From assembly GCA_902826615.1 (NCBI GenBank), contig CADEFN010000007.1, forward strand, positions 124,001 through 188,000: a stretch of 64,000 nucleotides of DNA, written 5' to 3'. Made by a program: the position numbers and the translations under genes. This document shows, one piece after another, positions 5,296 to 61,087 of the stretch. The notes under the pieces are model-generated. The model searched no databases, was not told the DNA's origin, and worked only from the letters and a program-made list of their open reading frames with translations. The DNA comes from an uncultured Gemmatimonadota bacterium. Its GTDB lineage: Bacteria > Gemmatimonadota > Gemmatimonadetes > Gemmatimonadales > Gemmatimonadaceae. Position 1 is the stretch's first letter; each line of letters opens with the position of its first letter.

Positions 5296-6840
5296 TTAAG
5301 CGACCGTGTACTGCTGCGTCACATCCCTCCCCGCCCCCTTCTGGACCAGCTTGAACTCGTCCGGACGCAGCATGGGGTCGTCCCGGAGCTCGAGGGGGAA
5401 TCCCGCGATGCGTTCAAGCTTCCGCAGGTAGTCCTTTTCCTGTTCGAGGAGGTAGAACGCCACGTCCGGGTGCAGGCGCAGCAGGACGTGCTCCTTGCGG
5501 CCCTCCACCCCCATCCGCTTGACCGAGCGCTCGACCCGCCGGACGATGGTTTCGGGCGTAAACACCCGACCGGTGCCATGGCACGTGGGGCAGGCGCTGG
5601 TCATCTGCTGCAAATGGCTCTGCCGGACCCGCTGGCGGGTCATCTCGATCAACCCAAGGTCCGACACAGGGAAGGCCCGGGTACGGGCTCTATCGCGGCT
5701 CAGCTGCTGACGCAGCTCCTGGAGGACCCGGTCCCGGTTGGACTTGGTCTCCATGTCGATGAAGTCGCAGACGATGATGCCCCCCATGTCCCGAAGCCGG
5801 ATCTGACGGGCAACCTCTCGGGCGGCCTCGAGATTCGTCTTGAGAATGGTCTTTTCGGGGTCCTTTTTGCCGGTAAATCGCCCGGAGTTCACATCGACCG
5901 ATACCAGGGCCTCCGTGGGCTCGATGATCAGGTAGCCGCCCGATGGCAGTTCGCAACGACGCTTGAAGAGGTCACGGATCTCCGTCTCGATCTCTGCGCG
6001 ATCGAACAGGGGCACGTTCCCTTCGTAGAGGTGGATGCGCTCCACCAGCTCCGGGGCCACACCCTTGAGGTACTCCACGATCTCGTTGAAGATCTGCTTC
6101 GAGTCGACCTCGACCTTTTCGATCTTGGTCGAGAAGACATCGCGAATGATGCCGCGCGTCAGACTTGTCTCGCGATGCAGCAGCGCTGGTGCGCGAACGA
6201 AGGTGTTTTTCCGTTTCACCTTCTTCCATGTCCCCAGCAGGTTGTTCAGCTCACGCTCGAAGGCCTCCGGGGTGGCATCTTCACCGACGGTGCGAACAAT
6301 CACGCCACCCGACTTGGGGGGCAGCATGCCCTGAACCTGCTCGCGAAGGCGCTGACGCTCGGCCCGCTCGCCAATCTTGCGGCTGACACCTACGCGTGAG
6401 GCGTGGGGCATGAAGACGAGAAAGCGACCGGCGAGCGACACCTGCGCCGTCACGCGTGGCCCCTTGGTGGAGATGGGCTCCTTGGACACCTGAACGATCA
6501 GGGTGTCACCCTTCTTGATGACGTCCTGAATGGGCGGCGCCTTCTCCCGACGAGCCCTCCCGGGACCCTCGTCGTCTTCGTCCTCTTCCTCATCCTCGTC
6601 ATCCTCGGGGTCGACGGGCACCACGTCGGAGGCGTGAAGGAAGGCGCTTTTTTCGGTCCCGATGTCGACAAAGGCGGCCTGGATTCCAGGCTGTACTGCT
6701 TCGACCCGCCCCAGATAGATGTCACCGACCATGCGTCGTGCTTCTGGCCGGTCGACGAGCAATTCAACCAGCTCGTCGTCTTCGAGAATGGCGACTCGCG
6801 TCTCGCGCGAGGTGGAATTGATGAGAATCTCTCGCTTCAT
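5296..6840 (-). CDS. rng: Ribonuclease G (Rne/Rng family endoribonuclease)
   Basis: A 514-aa RNase E/G-type 5'-end-sensing endonuclease acting in rRNA processing and mRNA turnover. The N-terminal S1 domain (about residues 35-130) is interrupted by a strongly acidic Asp/Glu run at about residues 78-92. The catalytic Asp pair is visible in [13 protein letters not shown] and in IIVCDFIDM, and the zinc-link motif [10 protein letters not shown] is near residue 410. Length fits RNase G (about 490-515 aa); the long RNase E scaffold tail is absent. It is transcribed towards rplU-rpmA, a common arrangement linking RNA processing to ribosome synthesis. Confidence 0.95.
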
Positions 6841-17219: not shown

Positions 17220-18883
17220 CGGGCGGCCTCGAGTTGTGGTGGAAGGACAAAGGCGCCGATATGCGGCCCCTCGTTATGCAGCGTGGTGCGCAGTGCCATG
17301 GCGAGGACGTCGCGGGTTTCGTCCGGGTAGATGATGGCGTCGACGTAGCCGCGTGCCGCGGCGTAGGTGGCGTCGAGCTGGTGTTCGTAATCGGCACGCA
17401 TTTCGTCGACGGCACGGGTGACGTCGTCTGATGGCGCCTTGCCTGCCTTCTTCGCGGCGTCGATGGCGGGGCCATGCACTGCCTGAATGGCGGCCTCGCC
17501 CTCCATGACGCCCATGCGCCCACTCGGCCAGCTGAAAATGAAATCGGGATCAAAGCCCTGACCCGCCATGGCGTAGTAGCCGGCGCCGGACGCGTGGTTC
17601 ACCGTGAGCACCAACTTGGGAACACGAGCGCAGGCCATGGCCTCGACGAAGTGCGCGCCGGCGCGGATGATGCCTTCGTGCTCGGCTTCGGCACCCACCA
17701 TGAAGCCCGAGACATCCTGAACAAAGAGCAGCGGGATTCCCTGCCGATCGCAGCGCTCGATGAAGTAGGCGGTCTTTTCGGCACTCTCGGCGTAGATGAT
17801 GCCGCCAAAGCGCGGCTTTTCGCCCGCCCGACCCTTGATGAGCCCCCGCTGATTGGCAATCACACCAACGGCGATGCCATGGATGCGGATATCGCCGCAG
17901 ATGATTTCGCGCGCGAGGTGTCCCTGGAACTCGTCGATGACACCGTGGTCGGCGATGGCCCGGAGGATGTTGTGCATGTCGTAGGACATGCGATGATCCT
18001 GGGGGAGGAGGTCGTAGAGTGCGTCGTGGTCCCCATGCGTGGAATTGTGACCATCGGGGACAGAATGGTTGTGCGAATCGGAGGCGCTGCCCGTATTTTG
18101 AGATCGGGGGGGGGCCCCCAGCCCGCCAGCCGGCAGTCGCGACACCAGCTCGCGGATCTTCGCCAGACAGGCCGCATCATCGTCGACGGCGTAGTGCGCC
18201 ACCCCACTCACTTCCGTGTGCGTCACCGCCCCGCCTAACGTCTCTCCATCGATCGTCTGACCCGTCGCTCCCTTCACCAGGTTGGGGCCGCCCAGGCCCA
18301 TGAACGACGTCCCCTTGACCATCAGGATCACATCTGACAACGCGGGCAGGTACGCCCCACCGGCAATGCAGGGCCCCATCACCGCGGCAATCTGCGGGAC
18401 CCGAAGATACCGGCGCATGATCGAGTTGTAGTAGAACAGCCGCGCCGCTCCATACTGCCCTGGGAACACCCCTCCCTGGTAGGGAAGGTTCACCCCCGCC
18501 GAGTCTACGAGGTAGATGATCGGGACCCGGCACCGCATCGCGATCTCCTGAGCACGCAGCATCTTGGTGATGGTCTCTGGCCACCACGAGCCGGCCTTCA
18601 CGGTCGCATCATTCGCGACGATCACCACTTCGCGGCCCTGAACCATGCCGATGCCGGTGACCACGCCGACACCCGGCGCCTGTCCGTCGTAGCGGTCATG
18701 TGCGACCAGCAGCCCAACCTCCAAAAAGCGGCTGCCTTCGTCGCAGAGCGCGGTGACGCGTTCCCTGGCGGTCAGCTTTCCCTGCTTGTGCTGTCGCGCG
18801 ATCTTGTCCGCCCCGCCCCCTTCACGCAGTGTCGCTTCGAGCGCGCGTACCTCAGCGCTCAGCGTGCGAAGTCGTGTGGTCAC
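17216..18883 (-). CDS. Biotin-dependent acyl-CoA carboxylase, carboxyltransferase (beta) subunit
   Basis: A 555-aa carboxyltransferase of the propionyl/methylcrotonyl/geranyl-CoA carboxylase type. Acyl-CoA-binding features include [18 protein letters not shown] and [15 protein letters not shown]; the C-terminal half has [21 protein letters not shown] and GASHAG-like [18 protein letters not shown]. The start is GTG at 18883, overlapping the mutase small-subunit stop as GTGA. Two oddities are seen. A His/Ser/Asp-rich insertion of about 35 residues (about 257-292) separates the halves, and its codons begin at a run of nine G on the plus strand (18106-18114). No biotin carboxylase/BCCP alpha subunit is in the window, so the partner must be encoded elsewhere. 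Substrate uncertain. Confidence 0.88.
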
Positions 18884-19293
18884 GCCGAGGGCTGATGTGT
18901 TGCGGTGAACCACTCGCGGATGTAGTCCACAAGATCGGTCGTGCGTGTGCCGGGGCCAAACAGTTTGCCCACGCCGCCCGCAGCCAGCGACTCCATGTCT
19001 TCTTTCGGGATGATTCCGCCGCCGGTGATCAGGACGTCTTCGCGCCCCGCGTCCACCAGGAGCTGACGAACCCGCGGAAAGAGGGTCATGTGTGCGCCAC
19101 TCAGAATGGAGAGGCCGACCACATCGACATCCTCCTGAATGGCTGCCGTCGCGATCATCTCGGGGGTCTGATGCAGCCCGGTATAGATCACTTCCATTCC
19201 GGCATCACGAAGGGCGGCCGCGACCACCTTCGCGCCACGGTCGTGTCCGTCGAGCCCTGGTTTGGCGACAAGAACGCGTATTGGACGAGACAT
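18880..19293 (-). CDS. Acyl-CoA mutase, B12-binding small subunit (IcmB-like)
   Basis: A 137-aa stand-alone cobalamin-binding domain. The base-off/His-on motif DxHxxG is GLDGHDRG (Asp15, His17, Gly20), followed by [22 protein letters not shown] and ITGGGIIP, all typical of the methylmalonyl-CoA mutase family. The length matches separate small subunits such as IcmB or archaeal MCM. The likely large subunit is at 20226-21917, one gene away but in a different transcription unit. ATG at 19293 gives the family N-terminus [20 protein letters not shown] element 38 nt upstream may drive this operon, in which the carboxyltransferase, AtuA and two small proteins follow. Confidence 0.9.
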
Positions 19294-19331
19294 GAAGTTG
19301 AGCGTGAGAGTACAGCAACCCACTGCGCGGA

Positions 19332-19337
19332 AAGCTA
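19332..19337 (-). promoter_or_regulatory. Putative -10 element TAGCTT of the mutase small subunit/AtuA operon
   Basis: TAGCTT on the minus strand, about 38 nt before the ATG at 19293, in the gap after the methyltransferase stop. No clear -35 is seen. Just upstream lies a short direct repeat (AGCCGTCGG twice, around 19341-19358). Confidence 0.35.
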
Positions 19338-19380
19338 GTCAGCCGTCGGAGCCGTCGGCAGCGTTCCCCAGCTGACGGGG

Positions 19381-20034
19381 CTACCCCTTTCGCGCAACCA
19401 GAAGCATCTCGGATGAGGTGCGTCGGAGTGACCGATCCTCCCACGCATCCAGGGCAAGTTCCACCGTGAGCCCCTCTGCGCGCATGAGATCGGAGAGGGC
19501 CGTCGCTGTGTACAACCGAATCCGATGTTCCCGGGCCGGCATGGCGCGAGGGCCACCCGAGAAGGAGGAGTAGATGGTGAGCACTCCTGACAACGGATCA
19601 AACCGGCGCTCTTGCGTCACTACCGTACCGTTCCGCGTCTTCCACCAGTCTTTCGCCAGAAAACGCGCCATGACCCCGTCGCGACTGCCGCCGTGCCACA
19701 CGAGCAGCCCACCAGGTCTGAGCACCCGCGCAAACTCGCGAATCACCCGCCGGTCATCACCCGGGTCGACGAAGAAGCCGAATGAGGTGAAGAGATTGAG
19801 CACCGCGTCGTATCGTGCCCCCCAGCGGGCAGGGAGCTGACGCATGTCGCCGCGCGTGTAGGTGAGCCTGCCGCGCGCGGTGCCTCGCCGCCTGGCCGCC
19901 GCGAGCAACTCTGGCGAGTAGTCGAGTCCATCAACCGCAAAACCCGCCTCGGCGAGGAGATGGGCATGACGTCCCTGGCCGCAGGGAACGTCGAGCAGGC
20001 GCGCGCCGGACGGGAGCGCTAGCAGTTCCAGCAA
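19381..20034 (-). CDS. Class I SAM-dependent methyltransferase, 5' end unclear
   Basis: A Rossmann-fold methyltransferase. Motif I is LLDVPCGQGRHAHLLAEAG, followed by GLDYSPELLAAARRR, the YDAVLNLFTSFGFF acidic loop and LRPGGLLVWHGG. The substrate is unknown. TTG at 20034 is the only canonical start, giving 217 aa, but the same frame continues upstream with a typical family N-terminus (EWWSTYFTEDYLLEFEPIFD) to about 20121. There it runs into the inverted repeat, which would translate as Ala-Ser-Arg repeats with no ATG, GTG or TTG. The natural start may therefore have been overwritten by the repeat, or a non-canonical start is used. The gene follows the mutase large subunit on the same strand. 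Confidence 0.75.
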   Translation of the reverse strand: MLELLALPSGARLLDVPCGQGRHAHLLAEAGFAVDGLDYSPELLAAARRRGTARGRLTYTRGDMRQLPARWGARYDAVLNLFTSFGFFVDPGDDRRVIREFARVLRPGGLLVWHGGSRDGVMARFLAKDWWKTRNGTVVTQERRFDPLSGVLTIYSSFSGGPRAMPAREHRIRLYTATALSDLMRAEGLTVELALDAWEDRSLRRTSSEMLLVARKG

Positions 20035-20129
20035 ACGGGAGACCTGGCGGCGGTCTTCGACGGGATCGAAGATCGGCTCGAATTCGAGGAGATAGTCCTC
20101 GGTGAAATACGTGGACCACCACTCCTGGG

Positions 20130-20221
20130 AAGCACGGGAGGCACGAGAAGCACGGGAGGCACGGGAGGCAACGCCTCCGGACTCAGTCGTGCTACCCGTG
20201 CTTCTCGTGCCTCCCGTGCTT
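20130..20221. repeat. Large inverted repeat built from 9-bp units
   Basis: Two perfectly complementary 27-nt arms (20130-20156 and 20195-20221) flank a 38-nt centre that has its own small hairpin (GGAGG...CCTCC). Each arm is made of near-identical 9-bp units alternating between AAGCACGGG and AGGCACGAG types, and the centre contains two more. The element fills the gap between the mutase large-subunit stop (20226) and the region that should hold the methyltransferase start. It would form a very stable RNA hairpin and may be a terminator/attenuator or a mobile repeat of REP type. No T-tract follows on either strand. Confidence 0.9.
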
Positions 20222-20225
20222 CTGC

Positions 20226-21917
20226 TCAGAAGAACACCGGCTCGCGATATGCGCCGAACTTCTGCTCCATGGCGTGACGAATTTCGTACAGCGTGCAGTA
20301 TGCCCGCGCGCAGTCGAGGATGAAGGGAATCAGGTTGGCCTTCGTCCCCGCGGCGTTGGTGAGCGCTTCGAGTCTCGCGGCGACCAGGGCGTCGTCGCGC
20401 TTCGCACGCAGCTGCGCCAGTCGCTCCCTCTGCTCCCGGTCAGCTTCCTGCCCGATCCGGAGTACGGGAATGTCGAGCCCCTCGTCGTCAGTGACAAACT
20501 CGTTGACGCCGACAATCACCCGGCGGTGCTGCTCGATCTCCCACTGCTGACGTGCAGCGCTCTCGGCGATCTTGCGCTGGAACCAGCCCTGTTCGATGCC
20601 CTTCACCACACCGCCCTGCTCCTCGATCTGCGCGAAGAGCGCCTCGGCGTCACGTTCCAGTTTGTCGGTGAGCGCTTCGACGTACCACGACCCGCCTAAC
20701 GGGTCCGAGACATTGGGGACACCCGTTTCGTAGGCCAGCACCTGCTGGGTGCGCAACGCCACCTGCACCGACTGCTCGGTGGGCAGGGCCAGCGTTTCGT
20801 CCATGGAATTGGTGTGGAGCGACTGCGTGCCACCCAGCGCCGCGGCCAGCGCCTGATAGGCCACACGCACCACGTTGTTCATCGGCTGCTGTGCGGTGAG
20901 GGTCACGCCCGCCGTCTGCGAGTGGAACCGTAACATCCACGACTTGGGGTCCTTCGCGCCATAGTGCTCCTTCATGCGCCGCGCCCAGATCCGCCGAGCT
21001 GCGCGCAGTTTGGCAATTTCCTCGAAGAAGTCGTTGTGGATATCGAAGAAGAACGAAAGGCGCGGGGCAAAGCTGTCGATATCGAGTCCGCGGTCGCGAC
21101 CCCGCTCCACGTAGGTGAAGCCGTTGGCCAGGGTAAAGGCCAGTTCCTGGGCCGCCGTCGCGCCCGCTTCGCGGATATGGTAGCCCGAGATGGACACCGT
21201 ATTCCACTGCGGCGTGTGCTGCGCGCCCCAGTCAAAGAGGTCAACAATCAGTCGCAGCGCCGGCTCGATGGGGTAACACCACGCATGCTGCGCCATGTAC
21301 TCCTTGAGGATGTCGTTCTGCACGGTACCGCGCAGTTTGTCAGATGACACCCCCTGCCGTTCAGCAGCGGCCACATAGAAACAGAACAGGATGACCGCTG
21401 GCCCATTGATCGTCATCGACGTCGAGACCTGATCGAGGGGAATCCCTTCGAACAACGTCTCCATGTCGGCCAGACTCGAAATGGCGACACCGGTCTTGCC
21501 CACCTCGCCTTCGGATCGTGGATGATCCGAGTCGTACCCCATGAGGGTCGGGAAGTCGAAGGCGGTGGAAAGCCCCGTTTGCCCATTCTGCAGGAGGAAC
21601 TTGAAGCGGGCGTTGGTCTCGCGGGCCGTGCCGAACCCCGCGAACTGCCGCATGGTCCACAGGCGACCGCGGTAACCCGTGGGATGGATGCCGCGTGTGA
21701 AGGGGAAACTCCCCGGCATCGGCGTATCCACCATGTCGGGCGAGGTGTCAAGCGCACTGTAGGCGGGCTCGACCTCAAACGCCGAATTGGTGTAGGCGAT
21801 GTCTCGCACCTCGCTCCGGCCGTACCGGGCGCGCCAGGCGGCGACCTCTGCCCGGAGTGCCTCCAGCTCCGGTTGCTCGCTGCTGATCTGTTCGGTGACG
21901 TCGCGGATACTCGTCAT
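20226..21917 (-). CDS. B12-dependent acyl-CoA mutase large subunit, isobutyryl-CoA mutase-like
   Basis: A 563-aa catalytic subunit of the methylmalonyl-CoA mutase family without a B12 domain, the same architecture as IcmA. Family blocks include [38 protein letters not shown] and [13 protein letters not shown]. In methylmalonyl-CoA mutase two residues hold the carboxylate, a Tyr in RQYAGF and an Arg in FMVRNTY (Tyr89/Arg207 in Propionibacterium). Here they are Phe92 and Gln210, the pair reported for isobutyryl-CoA mutase (Phe80/Gln198). The substrate is therefore probably a non-carboxylated acyl-CoA such as isobutyryl/butyryl-CoA. ATG at 21917 overlaps the meaB stop as ATGA. The small subunit is at 18880-19293. 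Confidence 0.88.
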
Positions 21918-22975
21918 GGCTCCCTCAACAGGTCGGCGCCGCGACGCAGTAACTCGTCCGCGATGCCAAATGGTGACGTGGCTCCCGACTCGATGGCAGA
22001 CAACTGCCCCTCGATATAGCCACGGATTCCAGCGTTTCCCCATACCCGACGACGCAGGCGCTGCTCCGCCACCTCAATCACCTGCTCCCGCCAACGCTCG
22101 CGCCGCCGCCGAAACAGCTCTCCACTGACCTCAAGATAGCGGGCGTGCCGATCCAGCGCGTCCAGCAGCTCGGTCACGCCCTCTCCTTTGGCCGCGACAG
22201 TGCGGAGTACCGGGGGAACCCAGGCCTCCGTCTGCTCTTCCGCCGCCGCCTGTCGAGCCGACTTGCCCGGGTTGTTGATGGCCTTGAGGTCCACCCCATG
22301 GTGCGCCGGGACGTCGCGCAGGGCGAGCCCTTGCCGCATCCCCAGCATCAGTTCGATGTCGTTGCGCACCCGATCGGCGCCCGGTCGGTCTGCCTTGTTG
22401 ACCGCGAAAAGATCGGCGATCTCCATCAGTCCGGCCTTGAGGGTCTGGATCGAGTCGCCGGATTCCGGGACCAGCACCACCAGCGTGCTGTCGGCCACGC
22501 GGGCAATATCCAGCTCACTTTGCCCAACCCCAACGGTCTCCAGCAGGATACGATCGAAGCCAAAGGCATCGAGGACGTCGGCAACCACCCGCGTGGCCGA
22601 CGACAACCCACCTAACGAGCCACGCGTCGCGAGGGACCGGATGTACACCCCGGGGTCCAAAGCCACACTTTCCATCCGGATGCGATCGCCGAGGAGGGCG
22701 CCGCCCGTGAAGGGCGACGTGGGGTCCACCGCGACCACTCCCACTTTCAGGCCCGCGGCGCGATACGCCGTCACCAGCTGTGTGGTCAGTGTGCTCTTGC
22801 CCGCGCCGGGTGGACCCGTCACGCCGATACGGCGCGCTCGGCCAATACGCGAATGCAGGCGGGAGAGCAGCACGTCATACCCCTCGCGCTGGTTCTCCAC
22901 GATGCTCACCGCACGCGCGAGCGCCGCCGGCTGTCCGGCGTCAAAGCGCTCCAGCAACTGGGTCAGGGCGTCCAT
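21914..22975 (-). CDS. meaB: MeaB/ArgK-type G-protein chaperone of acyl-CoA mutase
   Basis: A 353-aa SIMIBI GTPase. Walker A is [10 protein letters not shown] (residues 53-62), then [22 protein letters not shown], the switch motif [10 protein letters not shown] and G4 NKAD. MeaB proteins load adenosylcobalamin into the mutase and protect it from inactivation. The gene overlaps the mutase large-subunit start by 4 nt, so the client is clear from context. It follows the CNNM/CBS gene after 6 nt and belongs to the long aspS-phoH-ybeY unit. Confidence 0.95.
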
Positions 22976-60721: not shown

Positions 60722-60727
60722 TTCAGG

Positions 60728-61087
60728 TGGAGGCGCGGGGATTCGAACCCCGGTCCGAGATTAGATCGACCACAGCATCTACGTGCGTAGCTCACCGATT
60801 AAGGTCTGCAGCAACTGGCCAGTGAGCGGCCCACTACTGCACAAGCCTCCTTGAATTTTCGCCCGGCGCCAAGAGGCGCGACACCAGACTATCCCGATAT
60901 TGCGATACTCCGGACGCCGCCTCGGGCGGGCTTCATCAGGAGCAAGGCTTACAGCAACTCCGAAGAGTTACGCAGCCAGGGCCATTTCAGTGTTGGCAGT
61001 TGTAGGTTTGCCGAGGGTTTTACCAGGACCCAGCACCTGGGCACGCAGCCACAGCTTCACCGACCCCGTCGAGTCCAAGTCGCCCCC
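60728..61087 (-). ncRNA. ssrA: tmRNA (SsrA), one-piece
   Basis: A 360-nt tmRNA for ribosome rescue. The 5' end GGGGGCGACTTGGACTCGAC pairs its first seven bases with CGCCTCC near the 3' end (one G-U pair), followed by the discriminator A. The T-arm has GGTTCGAATCCCC. The tag frame at 60971-60997 reads Ala-Asn-Thr-Glu-Met-Ala-Leu-Ala-Ala, then TAA at 60968-60970, a normal proteolysis tag ending ALAA. The 3' CCA is not fully encoded (ACC then T), so CCA addition is needed. A strong promoter lies just upstream and a hairpin follows. Confidence 0.97.

Follow-up and report, generated by a model that had tools for sequence, protein, structure and literature searches.

The window described here, a stretch of 64,000 nucleotides of contig CADEFN010000007.1 (positions 124,001–188,000 of the forward strand; assembly GCA_902826615.1) from an uncultured member of the Gemmatimonadaceae, carries a repeat element (20129–20222) between the genes for the large subunit of methylmalonyl-CoA mutase and a class I methyltransferase. 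We consider it likely that this element is one pair of modules from a genus-restricted repeat family linked to stop codons, carried in frame in a methyltransferase gene with a probable CTG start codon. Judged by its sequences, the family is a dispersed one of unusual build, resembling the repetitive extragenic palindromic (REP) sequences and bacterial interspersed mosaic elements (BIMEs); it has apparently not been described previously, and literature searches on repeats in Gemmatimonas and Gemmatimonadetes returned nothing relevant. It adds a repeat tied to stop codons, with no mobilising enzyme found, to a phylum with few cultured members, and the probable CTG-over-TGA start, conserved across the bacterial family, would be mis-annotated by gene callers limited to ATG, GTG and TTG.

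The element consists of two facing arrays of 9 bp units (GARGCACGR), with arms of 35 nt each (20129–20163 and 20188–20222) that are complementary at 33 of 35 positions (94%) and are separated by a 24 nt loop. A first-pass annotation, made from the letters of the window, had described a perfect 27 bp inverted repeat that was both palindromic and internally tandem; both properties are seen, and the outer 28 nt of the arms, one more than claimed, are perfectly complementary. The left arm reads GAAGCACGG, GAGGCACGA, GAAGCACGG, GAGGCACGG and then a degenerate fifth unit (GAGGCAACG), the whole array of four GARGCACGR units and this fifth one occupying 20129–20173 on the plus strand. The right array (20188–20222, minus strand) is inverted, with three GARGCACGR units and GTAGCACG, in the order GAAGCACGG, GAGGCACGA, GAAGCACGG, GTAGCACGA. 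The intervening loop sequence (20174–20187, no strand assigned) is unlike the loops of other copies in the same genome. A pattern of two consecutive units matches 11 times in the window against 1.3 expected, a number reached in none of 100 shuffles; seven of these matches fall inside the element, to which GARGCACGR arrays in the window are confined. The 9 bp unit has no stop codon in any of the six frames. An unrelated 9 bp tandem array (unit CCTCGTCAT, 4.6 copies) lies at 6567–6607.

Looked for in the 5.9 Mb genome from which the window comes (G000) and in four neighbours of the same genus (G001–G004), as the first-pass annotation had suggested, the units and the hairpin prove to be a dispersed family. 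In G000 the element was found in dozens of places on ten contigs, and an exact 23 nt array core occurs 140 times. A sample of 818 kb, comprising the window and stretches centred on matches, so that fractions are approximate, contains 64 clusters, the window copy among them; as two are no more than a single two-unit match, the genome has at least 62 array clusters. The copies have their units in common, whereas each has its own loop; arms of four units are the commonest. A hairpin pattern was counted 34 times in G000, 14 times in G003 and not at all in G001, G002 or G004; G003 has many copies of the family and G001 and G004 a few divergent ones, while the 1.16 Mb sampled of G002 contained no array and only four isolated two-unit matches. 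In the searched genomes outside the genus, the matches listed cover the flanking mutase end only. Around the mutase gene at 80 other loci, nearly all from Gemmatimonadota, palindromes with arms of at least 22 nt numbered two in 555 kb, a rarity which indicates that the palindrome density is specific to this genus. An assembly gap (a run of N) directly behind one array of G000 (L135 10018–10020, contig C4) suggests that such hairpins hamper sequencing or assembly. G003 also contains further tandem array families, with units GGACGGGAT, GGGGCGTAT and GAATCAC, some of these arrays being accompanied by an inverted partner at short distance (L204–L222 and L236–L242; for example, L212 3887–3926/4012–4054 and L211 2532–2560/2594–2624); these other families, with 7–9 bp units, hint that it is the architecture, not the sequence, that recurs.

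The position of the arrays relative to genes, called with a simple home-made codon scorer, is biased in the G000 sequences. Of 95 array ends, 62 begin between −9 and +13 nt from a same-strand stop codon; 29 of these stand exactly 5 nt behind theirs, typically as TAG-GGGCR-GARGCACGR. TAG is the stop codon of 34 of the 62 array-linked genes compared with 197 of 640 others (p = 2e-4). Facing array pairs lie between convergent genes in 16 of 31 cases, compared with 96 of 663 gene pairs (p = 3e-6), and never between divergent genes. About a quarter of the elements overlap a predicted coding end or start, most copies being intergenic. TA at positions −8/−7 is present at 27 of the 62 stop-linked ends but at only four of the 33 other ends, and therefore mostly reflects the stop codons themselves. 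Distances to stop codons are looser in G003, where many copies have the outer motif CAGGGC-GAA.

The two arms of family elements are mutually independent. Recent copying as palindromes, or selection for pairing, should make arms match better within an element than between elements, which is not observed: the match is 0.816 within elements and 0.823 for permuted arms in G000, and 0.771 and 0.775 in G003, with no excess of compensatory pairing in either genome. For about 20 arrays, no inverted partner lies within 250 nt. The basic module would seem to be about four tandem GARGCACGR units, found preferentially right behind a stop codon and reading in the direction of the gene. Two modules that face each other, as they do chiefly between convergent genes, form a long hairpin. 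In the window, such a pair would have come to lie between the mutase stop codon and the conserved beginning of the methyltransferase.

The mutase large-subunit gene (20226–22043, minus strand; Pfam MM_CoA_mutase) ends in a TGA stop codon (20226–20228), which is overlapped, as CTGA, by a CTG (20227–20229, minus strand). From the layout of its orthologues, this CTG is most likely the start codon of the methyltransferase gene (19381–20229, minus strand; Pfam Methyltransf_25, 4e-18, and translation), which would then encode 282 residues. The element begins 3 nt behind the TGA, keeps the reading frame and makes up about codons 3–34 (RSTGGTRSTGSTTESGGVASRASRASRASRAS), some 31 codons rich in Ser, Thr, Gly, Arg and Ala. 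The first-pass annotation had taken the TTG at 20034 (20032–20034, minus strand) as the only ATG, GTG or TTG of the open frame and had noted family-like coding upstream of it to about 20121, and it was right on both counts; past this point it had found no start, and there is indeed no ATG, GTG or TTG, but the frame remains open through the whole element to the CTG. The 31 codons from an EWW motif (about 20121) through the TTG show proportions of nonsynonymous differences (pN) of 0.05–0.20 against 0.37–0.81 for synonymous ones (pS) among five members of the genus. Since these upstream codons are under purifying selection, the TTG is most likely internal.

For the available orthologues within the Gemmatimonadaceae, the mutase stop codon, the relative frame and the possible starts were tabulated. 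In most of them, TTC TGA closes the mutase gene, and from a conserved WW..YF motif back to this stop the methyltransferase frame runs open with no ATG, GTG or TTG. Where the stop is TGA and the relative frame −1 (42 orthologues), the codon overlapping the stop is CTG in 37 and TTG in five, and 35 have no ATG, GTG or TTG between the overlap and the conserved motif; where the stop is TAG or TAA or the frame differs, one of these three codons is present in 17 of 17. This partition, with CTGA or TTGA in every orthologue of the first kind and canonical starts in all others, makes the CTG at 20229–20227 the likely start. TGA is the mutase stop in 42 of 42 coupled cases compared with seven of 33 genomes in which the downstream methyltransferase was not found. 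The shortest layouts are CTG-ACC-GAG-TGG-TGG (L103) and TTG-AGC-GAA-TGG-TGG (L088), and among closely spaced gene pairs of prokaryotes no arrangement is more common than the NTGA overlap (PMC12548453). We therefore favour a methyltransferase that would start at the CTG by termination–reinitiation coupling, as it still could, given a unit without stop codons in any of the six frames and an element that leaves the frame intact; the element would be carried as a probably disordered tail of ~31 residues rich in Ser, Thr, Gly, Arg and Ala. Relatives have tails of a few to about 45 codons at the same junction, often rich in Ala, Arg and Ser, which argues that the N-terminal site is permissive. The element is thus most likely an in-frame stretch of the gene and not a lost start, the layout with a CTG over the stop being retained in dozens of orthologues that lack the element. 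Its effect at this locus is most likely near neutral.

At the orthologous locus of G003, an element is also present but shifts the frame. The closest start codon there is a GTG lying within the element, with GGGAGG from the arm ahead of it (L009 805–825), an arrangement resembling a new Shine–Dalgarno sequence and start in another frame. At this junction of mutase and methyltransferase, a more distant relative (L106, 4698–4730 onward) has an array of tandem 7-mers (AGACGGG) together with its inverted counterpart. In the window, the methyltransferase gene lies between the genes for the catalytic and B12-binding subunits of the mutase (18880–22043); in several relatives (e.g. L030, L049 and L074) the B12-binding gene directly follows the mutase.

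That the element entered this site by insertion, one of two possibilities raised in the first-pass annotation, is supported by the same arrays at dozens of loci in G000 and by the orthologous gap in G002, which has none. Several observations weigh against the explanation that we favour. The gaps of G002 and G000 are of similar length and unrelated in sequence, so that the comparison of sites yields a gap free of arrays but no clean empty site. No target-site duplications were seen and no mobilising enzyme was found, which leaves transposition as a presumed mode of insertion. Sampling of G000 was centred on matches, with genes predicted by our own scorer. CTG start codons are rare, and the use of this one is deduced from sequence. 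Finally, the base before the TGA is fixed by a Phe codon (TTC or TTT), making CTG or TTG automatic given TGA; what carries the argument is therefore that TGA and the −1 frame go together without exception and that all other layouts have canonical starts.

Candidate mobilisers were sought among known enzymes. The REP-associated tyrosine transposase (RAYT; Y1_Tnp, PF01797) was found in none of the five genus genomes, whereas control genomes such as that of Escherichia coli score. IS630-type transposases (DDE_3, PF13358) were absent from G000 and G003, with two in G002. A miniature inverted-repeat transposable element of the IS630/Tc1-mariner type was therefore rejected, the transposase being absent from the element-rich genomes and no TA duplication being seen at both ends. 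A reverse transcriptase was likewise rejected as mobiliser, with one weak match in G000, none in G003 and a distribution unlike that of the family. The arrays might instead have formed where they now stand, if short GAAGCAC-like seeds at the ends of genes were expanded by slippage and fold-back copying. The simplicity of the units, the unrelated loops, the several other tandem-inverted families of G003 with different 7–9 bp units and the unit-like seeds in element-free G002 sequence at two loci (GAGGCGTGA for L113 and GAAGCACAT for L116) are all compatible with such an origin. However, the same 9 bp sequence is present at more than 60 loci of G000 with no arrays in the G002 sample, and the copies in G003 have in common an ordered series of distinct units and partly also a loop, GCGATCGCGG, which calls for copying between loci. 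We regard an origin in place as unlikely, if worth bearing in mind, and spread by insertion as the better account.

A rather less probable explanation is that the element acts in cis as an RNA leader or attenuator, controlling the methyltransferase gene and the gene for the B12-binding subunit that follows. Folded on the coding strand, the element gives −82.2 kcal/mol compared with −38 ± 3.6 for shuffles (z = −12.3), a very stable hairpin that separates the mutase gene from the remainder of the operon, and the G003 orthologue also bears the element at this junction. The hairpin is strong, however, because both arms carry the family consensus; the arm match is no better than for permuted arms, with no sign of selection on pairing in the family. 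Moreover, dozens of unrelated genes have the same element at their ends, it is missing from most relatives that have this gene pair, and G003 differs in both start and frame. A scan of 19900–20400 found no G+C-rich hairpin followed by a U run, and with the U-tract absent an intrinsic terminator was ruled out; a known structured RNA was also ruled out, the sole Rfam match being the tmRNA at 60725–61087. The structured leader of the first-pass annotation is conceivable at the level of RNA, but the element lacks the signature of an intrinsic terminator and is most probably translated. If it is active at all, this would be through an RNA hairpin that influences the ends or the stability of mRNA, as has been proposed for REP/BIME, and not through intrinsic termination.

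The constant −1 relation and the constant TGA in 42 orthologues could also be read as programmed −1 frameshifting at TTC TTC TGA, joining mutase and methyltransferase without need of a start codon. This seems very improbable, as the site has no standard −1 slippery heptamer, every orthologue with another stop or frame has a separate start codon, L100 and L106 have an ATG directly behind the overlap and L091 has a GTG behind a TAG stop. Least credible is that the insert destroyed the start, as the first-pass annotation had suggested, and that the gene is a decaying pseudogene or begins internally at TTG 20034: although this TTG is the only ATG, GTG or TTG in frame, more than 30 element-free orthologues likewise have none between the overlap and the conserved motif, the codons upstream are constrained in five genus members and the frame is open through the element. 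The pairing that the annotation had set against its own proposal, an element absent elsewhere and an orthologue starting at the TTG, was found in neither part.

The dispersed family finds its closest parallel in GTAG-REP/BIME, which are short palindromic intergenic repeats, often inverted dimers, found for the most part behind genes and between open reading frames (ORFs) that converge or run in the same direction, with termini that often supply a TAG stop codon and some copies in ORFs (PMC3733652). The family shares with these the location downstream of genes, the inverted dimers and the TAG-supplying ends. Unlike them, its single module is a tandem 9-mer array that is not self-complementary, and not an imperfect palindrome of 20–40 bp, and RAYT is absent from the five genus genomes; for these reasons we do not file it as REP. 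As for the GTAG end, many stop-linked ends have TAG, but a G stands at position −9 in only 25 of the 62, so that GTAG does not appear to be fixed. A bolder suggestion, which we advance with considerable doubt, would be a new class of dispersed repeat comprising several unit families of the same architecture in one genus. Its single-arm tandem modules, with a TAG at their edge, would be set down by a RAYT-independent process at a constant distance from the preceding stop codon, palindromes being secondary where two modules meet. At the window locus, the element recalls the mycobacterial interspersed repetitive units (MIRU; PMC12548453), small dispersed repeats at a −4 nt NTGA stop/start junction where coupling is kept, except that in the present case the downstream gene merely gains codons in the same frame. 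It also recalls the Rickettsia palindromic elements (RPE; PMC10969869), which are translatable in frame within unrelated genes: here the frame is open through the element, which would probably be translated, but most copies of the family are intergenic and only some lie over predicted coding ends.
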